The position numbers were made by a program, and so were the translations under genes. Positions 13,553-15,956 of a stretch of 64,000 nucleotides of DNA are shown here, piece by piece. This DNA comes from Devosia sp. (GTDB taxonomy: Bacteria; Pseudomonadota; Alphaproteobacteria; Rhizobiales; Devosiaceae). Positions within the stretch are counted from its first letter, which is position 1, and each line of letters opens with the position of its first letter. The stretch lies in NCBI GenBank assembly GCA_017794705.1, contig CP051235.1, positions 2,939,001 to 3,003,000 on the forward strand. The letters are read 5' to 3'. A model generated the notes under the pieces. That model made no database searches. It saw only the letters and a list, made by a program, of their open reading frames with translations, and was not told the DNA's origin.

Positions 13553-13750
13553 ATGTCGGCAAACTTCATGACCAAAGAGCATGCAGCTGGCGTCGCGCTG
13601 GCCGCCAAACGCGGTCAGATCAAGCCCTCGGAACTCGAAGGCGCTGCCAAGAGCATGCATGACAATCTCTCGGCGGGTGAGTTGGAAGAATTTGCGCAGG
13701 CGAGCCTGCACAAGTTGCGCCCGCGCAAGCAGAGCGACAAACACGCCTGA
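13553..13750 (+). CDS. DUF3008-related small protein, copy 1
   Basis: 65 residues, starting MSANFMTKEHAAGVALAAKR and ending KLRPRKQSDKHA. It shares the pattern AAGVALAAKRGQ...L.GAAKSMHDNLSAGELEEFA with the neighbouring DUF3008 protein, so the two look like diverged duplicates. The ATG at 13553 follows a strong GGAGG (7 nt). DUF3008 proteins are small, soluble and charged, and are often general-stress genes; no biochemical role is established. The EcfG-type promoter upstream fits that. Confidence 0.75.
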   Translation: MSANFMTKEHAAGVALAAKRGQIKPSELEGAAKSMHDNLSAGELEEFAQASLHKLRPRKQSDKHA

Positions 13751-13859
13751 ACCGGCGGGATTTCGCGCACTCCTGAATTACGCCGCACCCCGGCCCGCTG
13801 CCGGGATGCGGTTTTGTGTGTCTGTGTTCGAAGCCGAATGGAAATTCCAGCGGCGGTTC

Positions 13860-13885
13860 GGAACAAAGGCGCGCGACACCGCGTT
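13860..13885 (+). promoter_or_regulatory. Second EcfG-type promoter
   Basis: GGAAC at 13860-13864, a 17 nt spacer and CGTT at 13882-13885, about 34 bp before the start of the second DUF3008 gene. Two independent matches before two paralogous genes make chance less likely. Confidence 0.7.
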
Positions 13886-13918
13886 TTGCGTGCAGTGACA
13901 CCAGAAGGAGTGAAAGAC

Positions 13919-14107
13919 ATGCCCGCAAAATCAAAGGCCCAGCAACGGGCGGCCGGTGCCGCGCTTTCAGCAAAGCGTGGTGAAACCAGAGTCAGAGAAC
14001 TGCAGGGTGCCTCGCGACAGATGTACGATTCCATGACCGAGGACGAGCTTGAAGAGCTTGCTGAGACCGATCGCAAGGGGTTGCCGGAGACGGTCGAGGA
14101 CGATTGA
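13919..14107 (+). CDS. DUF3008 family protein, copy 2
   Basis: 62 residues with the standard family opening MPAKSKAQQRAAGAALSAKR, then YDSMTEDELEELAETDRKG and an acidic end VEDD. Family length is about 60 residues. AGAAGGAG lies 8-15 nt before the ATG. Function is unknown; family members are repeatedly found with stress and salt genes in alphaproteobacteria (general knowledge). It stands 168 bp after its paralogue and has its own EcfG-type promoter. Confidence 0.88.
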   Translation: MPAKSKAQQRAAGAALSAKRGETRVRELQGASRQMYDSMTEDELEELAETDRKGLPETVEDD

Positions 14108-14130: not shown

Positions 14131-14397
14131 TTATTCGCTGATTGCTAGAGCGATTTCGGTTCCTTCCGGGTTCCACGCCTGAACTATCGAACATTCGATC
14201 AGCCAGTCTGAAATACAGGCGACCGCGGCGGCGGCTTCGGCCTGCGCGCGGGTTTGCCAGCCGCAGAGATAGGTGTGCCAGTGCAGGCCCTCCTGATGCT
14301 GCATGAAGATATCCACAGACCAGCCGGCAGGGCTGCACACGGCGTTCAACTGACAATCCTCGGGCCCCAGACCTGATTCAGTCATGCATTCATTCAT
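14131..14397 (-). CDS. Small hypothetical protein, partner of the secreted peptide gene
   Basis: 88 residues if started at 14397 (MNECMTESGLGPEDC); an ATG at 14385 (MTESGLG) is an alternative. It contains CGWQTRAQAEAAAAVACISDW and several Cys and Trp residues, without a signal peptide or membrane segment. I do not recognise a family. Its start lies inside an ATGA tetranucleotide repeat that also contains the stop of the upstream secreted-peptide gene (8 bp overlap), so translation is probably coupled. Plausible as a real gene but unconfirmed. Confidence 0.5.
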   Translation of the reverse strand: MNECMTESGLGPEDCQLNAVCSPAGWSVDIFMQHQEGLHWHTYLCGWQTRAQAEAAAAVACISDWLIECSIVQAWNPEGTEIALAISE

Positions 14398-14554
14398 TCA
14401 TTGCGCAGGTGATCGCTGCATCGACGCCGCGCTCAACGCATATGCCGGCACCGGCTTCAGGAGCCTGAACGGCGGCGAAGGCGGGCGGGCCCTCTTGGGC
14501 CAATGCGCTGGCGGGCACGAAGACCATCAGAAGAGCCAACAGCAGGCGGACCAT
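14390..14554 (-). CDS. Small secreted peptide with N-terminal signal sequence
   Basis: 54 residues from the ATG at 14554, chosen because GGGGAGG lies 5 nt upstream. A longer in-frame reading to 14770 would cover repeat DNA and is rejected. Residues 1-20 (MVRLLLALLMVFVPASALAQ) are a clean Sec signal peptide with an ALA-Q cleavage site, leaving about 34 residues that include two Cys (ICVERGVDAAITCAMNE) which could form a disulfide. Function is unknown. It overlaps the next minus-strand gene by 8 bp, forming a two-gene micro-operon. Confidence 0.55.
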   Translation of the reverse strand: MVRLLLALLMVFVPASALAQEGPPAFAAVQAPEAGAGICVERGVDAAITCAMNE

Positions 14555-14595: not shown

Positions 14596-14743
14596 CCGGC
14601 GGTTCCGGCCAGCGCGGTCTGATCAATTTTCTGGAGCGAGGTGGGAGGGAAATGATCCGGACGCGGTGCCGCAAGCAGGAAGTCTTGCACGCCAGGGTTT
14701 CCCTCCCGGGGGGAGCAGAGGGAGGACGCAAAATCCGCTCCCC
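14596..14743. repeat. Multi-hairpin repeat element, unit A
   Basis: Three inverted repeats in order. H3-like: CCGG 14596-14599 with CCGG 14605-14608. H1: GGGAGGGAAA 14643-14652 with TTTCCCTCCC 14698-14707, enclosing a sub-hairpin GCAAG/CTTGC. H2: about 14710-14719 with 14734-14743, one mismatch, around a loop containing GGAGGACGCAAAA. The order and the AGGACGC loop match units B and C, while the stem sequences differ. Confidence 0.7.
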
Positions 14744-14753
14744 GTTCTCGTGG

Positions 14754-14869
14754 CCCGGATCTCCGGGCAATGAATTGGGGAGGAATGCCAGGGAACGCAG
14801 CGTCTCTGCCGAAGCAAAAACTGGGCATTCCTCCCCACAAAGAGCAACAGAGGACGCGAAGTTGCTCTT
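14754..14869. repeat. Multi-hairpin repeat element, unit B
   Basis: H3: CCCGG 14754-14758 with CCGGG 14763-14767. H1: a perfect 13 bp stem, GGGGAGGAATGCC 14777-14789 with GGCATTCCTCCCC 14824-14836; the loop starts AGGGAACGCAGCG and ends GCAAAAACTG. H2: a perfect 9 bp stem, AAGAGCAAC 14840-14848 with GTTGCTCTT 14861-14869; the 12 nt loop is AGAGGACGCGAA. Confidence 0.75.
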
Positions 14870-14879
14870 ATTCTTTCAA

Positions 14880-14994
14880 CCCGGTTGCCCGGGCAAACTG
14901 GTGGAGAGGGACACCAGGGAACGCAGCGTTTCTGCCGAGGCAAAAACTGGGTGTCCCTCTCCGATAGAGAGCAGCAGAGGACGCGAAGCTACTC
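14880..14994. repeat. Multi-hairpin repeat element, unit C
   Basis: H3: CCCGG 14880-14884 with CCGGG 14889-14893. H1: a perfect 13 bp stem, GGAGAGGGACACC 14903-14915 with GGTGTCCCTCTCC 14950-14962. Its stem bases differ from unit B at several pairs, but the loop is nearly identical to B. H2: GAGCAGC 14969-14975 with GCTACTC 14988-14994 (one mismatch), around the same 12 nt loop AGAGGACGCGAA. The period from B to C is about 126 bp. Confidence 0.75.
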
Positions 14995-15534
14995 CCTAAA
15001 CTGCTGTGCGGATTGAGCCGAGACAAAGCGGCACGCCGGCCAAAGCCGGGGCGGTACCCTGAACATGTGTCCTGGTGTAGCGACCGTCTGCGAATGACAG
15101 GGCCGGCCAGTATAAGCCGGGTGCCCAAACGAGATCAGCAGCTCTTCAATCCAGTCAAACTGCGGTCAATATCCACAGGCTCGACTCTCAGCCTTACGGC
15201 CGGTGCGAAATGGCATAAATCCTTGAATACTTGCCACGCCGATGGTCACTGCTGCGTGGCTTAAACCCTGACGAAACCGGCTGAGAATGGCTGATCACCC
15301 GGCCCGTCTTTGTTGGCGCGGTGGTATGGCAGATCAGGGATATTGTCAATGCGTTTTTTATTCAGGGTAAAAAAATCGTTCGGTATTTTTTAAGGGCCTG
15401 AAAATGCAGACAAATTTAATCCACAGCGCGGTTTCTGCCGGAAATCCGGGCCGTTTGAGCGGAATATTTTATGATTTTTTCCGGCGTGATTCGGCGATTT
15501 TCGTGGGACGCAGGGCTGATATGCAGATTTAGAC

Positions 15535-15633
15535 GGGGAGGAGTGTCAGGGAATGCAAATGCGCGGGATCCAAGGATCCGCGCAAACACTCCTCCCCTGG
15601 GAAAGGCAGCTGAGGACGCATAGCCACCTTCCC
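15535..15633. repeat. Multi-hairpin repeat element, unit D (dispersed copy)
   Basis: H1: a perfect 12 bp stem, GGGGAGGAGTGT 15535-15546 with ACACTCCTCCCC 15586-15597. Its loop begins CAGGGAATGCA and carries an inner hairpin (TGCGCGGGATCC 15560-15571 with GGATCCGCGCA 15574-15584). H2: 15599-15610 with 15623-15633 (bulged), loop TGAGGACGCATA. It lies about 540 bp from unit C, past the AT-rich core. Confidence 0.7.
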
Positions 15634-15956
15634 TTTACAGACCAGAACCAACGCCAGACGACTCACGCGGGCCCATTGGGGCCGGCTGGATCAGCGAATA
15701 TGTTCCGGGATAAATGCGGGCCGGTTGAACTCCTGCTCCGCGGTGTCTCTATGCTGTCAGGTCCCGCTTTTTGTTGATCTTGTTTGGGCGACTGATCGAC
15801 TGTCGTATGTGATTCCACCAAACACAAGATTGACGTAAACGTCGTTGGGTTACGTTTGCGCAAGGCGGGTGTTGTCTAACCAAGCTGTTTGCTACTGTCC
15901 TGAGCCAAACTGTCGCAGAGGTGCATTTTTTTACCTCGGCTAAAATGGAGAGTGTG

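Follow-up and report, generated by a model that had tools for sequence, protein, structure and literature searches.

Hairpin units clustered in a 64,000-nucleotide stretch of DNA (the window) belong to a new RNA family of a known functional kind. The conserved object is an RNA read from the minus strand; it has homologues that form one family, its seeds are conserved and unpaired, and in most relatives it occupies the 3' untranslated region (UTR) of a receiver-domain gene. On balance we think it probable that the units encode a Devosiaceae-specific small RNA that silences mRNAs through C/U-rich seeds, and that it is transcribed, processed and acts on mRNAs, and on which ones, is inferred.

The four units, A to D, are present at about the positions proposed in a first-pass annotation of the window, each with two hairpins, H2' and H1' in the sense of the RNA, and all on the minus strand. 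Unit D, the first copy in that sense (15533-15636; H2' 15600-15611/15622-15633, H1' 15535-15546/15586-15597), carries an H2' loop around GCGUCCUC and UUCCCU on the 3' side of H1', and scores 89.2 and 74.5 bits (cmsearch) with covariance models R1 and R2 and 65.9 bits, on the minus strand, with model R3. Next come unit C (14901-15001; H2' 14965-14975/14988-14998, H1' 14903-14915/14950-14962; R3 56.7 bits), unit B (14775-14874; H2' 14840-14848/14861-14869, H1' 14776-14789/14824-14837; R3 56.1 bits) and unit A (14641-14746; H2' 14710-14719/14734-14743, H1' 14643-14652/14698-14707; R3 34.0 bits, E 5.3e-5), the furthest diverged of the four, each again matched on the minus strand. On both strands, the folds of units B, C and D are more stable than those of shuffled sequences (z from -2.9 to -6.0); unit A shows no clear excess (z +1.1 on the plus strand, -0.9 on the minus). 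As had been described, the H1 stems are perfect and built of differing bases, at 13 bp in C and, rather than the 13 proposed, 14 bp in B, and the H2 stems differ around one loop, AGAGGACGCGAA in B and C with near versions in A and D. The third hairpin assigned to units A-C fared less well, being in C and B a spacer palindrome, at 14880-14893 between units C and B (a short GC stem without the C/U-rich loop) and at 14754-14767 between B and A (a short hairpin fold), and in A doubtful.

Selection on the fold, rather than on the sequence of the stems, is borne out by covariation. In an alignment of A-D with both stems written in, 88.6% of cells pair, and the pair score collapses when the partner is shifted by 1-3 columns. 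Both sides have changed in 15 of the 22 stem pairs, against a mean of 6.5 over 500 shuffles, none of which reaches 15; among 26 sequences from several genera the figure rises to 21 of 22, a count that may be favoured by the trimming of seeds and the omission of poorly aligning copies. The earlier view that only paired double changes occur does not hold, as reading the minus strand reveals 44 single-side changes of the G.U type in those 26 sequences. On the plus strand, from which the units had been read, such G.U intermediates look like mismatches, which is why only the double changes had been seen.

The strand itself is set by the imperfect pairs. In the DNA, an RNA G.U pair shows up as G.T when the strand with the sense of the RNA is read, and as A.C when its complement is. 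In plus orientation a first count, with a scoring that treats the two alike, gave 152 A.C and 26 G.T, and a stricter recount gave 138 against 22. A.C exceeds G.T in all eight genera (6:0, 13:3, 1:0, 3:0, 4:0, 29:9, 78:9 and 4:1), leads in 57 of the 63 sequences with unequal counts, and remains ahead, 77 to 20, once within-genus repeats are collapsed; because the sequences are related, a sign test overstates the significance (p 1.6e-11). The imperfect pairs are thus G.U on the minus strand, which is the strand of the RNA, and the test, which does not use the R3 alignment, is unaffected by seed trimming. Since structure at the DNA level would give no such asymmetry, the bias argues against selection on DNA structure, and with it against the single-stranded DNA that the first-pass annotation had allowed for; of the three readings offered there, an RNA repeat is the one supported, as a structured RNA of the minus strand.

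Read in this direction, a unit is about 95-105 nt long and runs 5'-H2', 2-5 nt, H1'. H2' is a stem of 9-13 bp with the loop GCGUCC(U/A/C), which takes the form GCGUCCUC in the window's genome, GCGUCCAC in Devosia, where the hairpin can be drawn as CCUG-CGUCCA-CAGG, and GCGUCCCC in genus g16. H1' is a long hairpin with a 5' arm GRGGARG..., a variable inner hairpin and a 3' arm ...CCUCCCC, a single-stranded AUUCCCA(A/G) lying on its 3' side before the 3' arm. Across the 26 sequences the CGUCC loop core is invariant and the UUCC bulge nearly so, while the stems vary. Further hairpins accompany the unit in some genera: 33 of 39 Devosia loci have one with an ACCUCCC loop (median stem 10 bp, some 195 nt beyond the element start), 35 of 39 have a GUCCCUC stem-loop, usually 3' of the former, and in g16 genomes hairpins with CCCUCCC loops lodge between copies; the spacers within the window are simple GC hairpins. 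At one further locus (L080, genome G126) three consecutive hairpins with CUCUCCCUCCC, CUUCCCUCC and ACCCUCCCUG loops lie about 150-420 nt past the element in the RNA sense, a row that we read as a putative larger array of anti-Shine-Dalgarno hairpins.

Three covariance models were used to follow the family. R1, built from the four window copies, detects it in other genera of Devosiaceae, and R2 in many Devosiaceae genomes; R3 was built from the 26 minus-strand sequences, some of them trimmed by a few linker or outer-stem bases so that MAFFT aligned the stems, with poorly aligning copies, window A, B and C among them, left out. The search with a covariance model that the first-pass annotation had proposed did yield further copies: R3 matches 99 of the 136 Devosiaceae genomes, in most cases with E < 1e-7 (E-values that rest on short calibrations), and given the strict filters of the presence test this is a lower bound. 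Most genomes hold one locus with 1-4 clustered copies, and two loci occur in some genomes of Devosia and g11; among the 37 genomes without a match are every g12 genome listed and a number of small or incomplete assemblies. Beyond the family, covariance-model searches of 398 genomes sampled from the order Hyphomicrobiales and 385 from the class Alphaproteobacteria (about 380 other Hyphomicrobiales and about 380 other Alphaproteobacteria) gave no convincing match, each of the six best outsiders that were read lacking one motif or a proper stem, and no exact copies occur in GTDB contigs, plasmids, phages or viral contigs. Matches to named species, D. limi, D. soli and D. marina among them, identify genus g15 as Devosia, and the RNA, by these sequence searches, appears to be carried by most Devosia species and restricted to Devosiaceae.

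Some candidate matches were set aside. R1 matches in four genomes (G005, G010, G014 and G017) proved, judged by sequence, to be other GC-rich CCCTCCCC/GGGGAGGG repeats, and a short H2-loop pattern was insufficiently specific as a search probe. Dispersed REP-like CCCTCCCC...GGGGAGGG repeats at six loci in three of these genomes (L011, L012, L013, L019, L022 and L025, in G010, G005 and G014) are unrelated to the family and give weak false matches.

The genomic setting is most regular on the upstream side. At most Devosia and g16 loci a co-oriented receiver-domain gene (Pfam Response_reg, at 30.6 bits for one protein and below cutoff for two diverged ones) precedes the element, its stop codon ending at element position 11-14, the 5' arm of H2' thereby doubling as the end of the reading frame. 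At loci L069, L078 and L098 the element follows the end of a LuxR-type gene by 6-14 nt, and in g9 a gene that we take to be acs, from reading its protein sequence, stops 4-27 nt before one copy. Copies standing alone, without the receiver gene, occur in g9 and in the window's genome, where the units lack it as a neighbour and no clear orthologue of it was found (25% identity, E 0.007). No recognisable promoter was seen at the element, nor a U-tract terminator directly after H1'. In the window, reading along the minus strand, unit D comes before C-B-A and is divergent from an SH3-domain gene; near the units, as near one Devosia copy, are what we presume, from reading the sequences, to be MgtC-like and SDR genes, a neighbourhood consistent with vertical descent from a single locus. 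Two adjacent small DUF3008 (PF11450) genes (13559-14107, plus strand) also lie upstream of the units, and just downstream of unit A in the RNA sense a small frame (14390-14554, minus strand) has a signal-peptide-like start and a ribosome-binding site.

Because the receiver stop codon lies in H2', the RNA is probably cut out of the receiver mRNA as its 3' UTR at these loci; stand-alone units, as in the window, would probably have a promoter of their own. Stable stems would keep the C/U-rich seeds open, the seeds would pair with the ribosome-binding regions of trans-encoded mRNAs and so block translation, and tandem copies may raise the dose or broaden the set of targets. Counting against silencing, the GCGUCC seed is anti-Shine-Dalgarno only in part. 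In eight genomes of five genera, GAGGACGC stands shortly before the ATG of 73 candidate frames of at least 60 aa; targets of the H2' loop shared between genera amount to one clear orthologous pair and one short ABC-type match, about what chance would give by a level estimated by hand. Among the eight Devosiaceae genomes, in those that are GC-rich, GAGGACGC shortly before ATG is several-fold commoner than the reversed pattern, a weak control, since GAGGA is itself a ribosome-binding sequence. More tentatively, the 3' end of the receiver gene, a stand-alone receiver-domain gene, may hold a regulatory array, specific to this lineage, of successive hairpins with different seeds (GCGUCC, UUCCC, ACCUCCC and GUCCCUC); from one signalling transcript would then come a response regulator together with several small RNAs that differ in the targets they reach.

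Some of these features would also suit an element acting in cis in the 3' UTR, one that shields the receiver mRNA against 3' exonucleases or serves Rho-dependent or bidirectional termination, with no targets in trans: it is placed right behind the receiver stop codon, its stems are very stable, and at many loci there is a convergent or neighbouring gene. We consider this unlikely, because fixed loops and bulge amid drifting stems are the opposite of what a stability element needs, and because the element has no U-tract, stands alone without the gene in g9 and in the window's genome, and comes in up to four tandem copies. The repetition of single-stranded motifs, identically placed in several copies, invites another thought, that the loops are sites for an RNA-binding protein, either titrated by the array or processing it; the CcaF1-like proteins that act on CcsR RNAs are a precedent (PMC10253847). 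We hold this to be quite unlikely, its best-known case, a CsrB/RsmZ-type sponge for CsrA, being excluded: there is no PF02599 match (genome 93% complete), and the GGA loops belong to the strand opposite to the RNA.

That the element is a leader or riboswitch-like regulator in cis of the downstream minus-strand gene is very unlikely, since that gene varies by genus (MgtC-like, otsB-type phosphatase, GGDEF and others) and the conserved neighbour is the upstream one. Even so, units C-B-A precede the small secreted-protein frame, with its ribosome-binding site at about 14554 (minus strand), and could belong to its leader, and in g9 a GGDEF gene follows one copy. Least credible, to the point of being barely conceivable, is a mobile or recombinogenic DNA element such as the REPIN, MITE or integron-type site first suggested; the units are repeated, hairpin-forming and intergenic, and a few Devosia genomes have two loci, but genomes as a rule hold about one conserved locus, often next to the same gene, G.U pairing is restricted to one strand, and no plasmid, phage or viral match was found.

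The family, which we prefer to read as a silencing small RNA, adds to Devosiaceae a well-defined RNA that is absent from Rfam, and a literature search found no publication that mentions Devosia alongside small RNAs and Hfq. It also provides a second form of the cuckoo-RNA design, a variable stem with a fixed C-rich loop, at a separate locus and with other seeds in the same genomes. In Devosia limi, D. soli and D. marina it offers a connection between a receiver protein and a 3'-UTR RNA that lends itself to direct testing.

Against known RNAs, the element matches no named family in Rfam: at gathering scores the only match in the window is elsewhere, and a permissive scan of the unit region gave nothing credible. 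That other match is a ZMP/ZTP riboswitch (RF01750; 49607-49688, plus strand, 63.8 bits). Sub-threshold matches to whalefall-1 (20.3 bits, cutoff 37) and, downstream of one homologue, to Atu_C4 were rejected. Listeria LhrC-type multicopy small RNAs likewise have several near-identical tandem copies and UCCC seeds, in unrelated bacteria. AbcR1/AbcR2 (alpha-r15) are also tandem small RNAs with unpaired CU-rich anti-Shine-Dalgarno motifs (PMC7143759), but have three stem-loops and independent promoters, and the units have no Rfam match to alpha-r15. The CIN1 locus of Rhodobacter (RF02791) likewise places tandem hairpin RNAs, CcsR1-4, behind a small protein gene, ccaF1, with which they are co-transcribed before maturation by RNase E (PMC10253847); there, however, the partner is a DUF1127 protein, whereas that of our family is a receiver-domain protein, and the seeds differ. 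No co-oriented DUF1127 gene was found upstream of the element, the upstream genes being receiver-domain, LuxR-type or acs.

In its proposed working the RNA resembles alpha-r14/NfeR1 (RF02344), of the cuckoo family in Alphaproteobacteria, in which variable stems with fixed unpaired anti-Shine-Dalgarno loops are established (PMC7143759, PMC10746234). There, too, hypervariable stems surround a fixed C/U-rich unpaired motif, often in tandem copies, and the units share with the alpha-r14/cuckoo/CcsR RNAs their several hairpins of hypervariable stem and fixed loop. The defining CCUCCUCCC, however, is absent from the loops of A-D, which are instead of the GCGUCC and AUUCCCA types, ACCUCCC or CCCUCCC hairpins adjoining the unit in some relatives; unlike alpha-r14, the units have no terminator hairpin with a U-tract, and seeds and locus are other. 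Neither RF02344 nor RF02791 matches the window region or most homologues, the one exception being weak (21.2 bits, L072). The same genome has a separate alpha-r14/CcsR-like locus about 95 kb from the units (L220; G000:C1:3048863-3049199, minus strand), in which CCUCCUCCC occurs four times alongside a U-tract terminator hairpin and which scores 44.9 bits for alpha-r14 (cutoff 58.8) and 32.7 bits for CcsR1, both below the curated cutoffs; both loci are likewise present, and apart, in genomes G003, G009, G015 and G022. The lack of CCUCCUCCC and of any Rfam match, together with this separate locus, leads us to reject membership of alpha-r14 and to call the units a new family, whose resemblance to the cuckoo RNAs is a matter of design.
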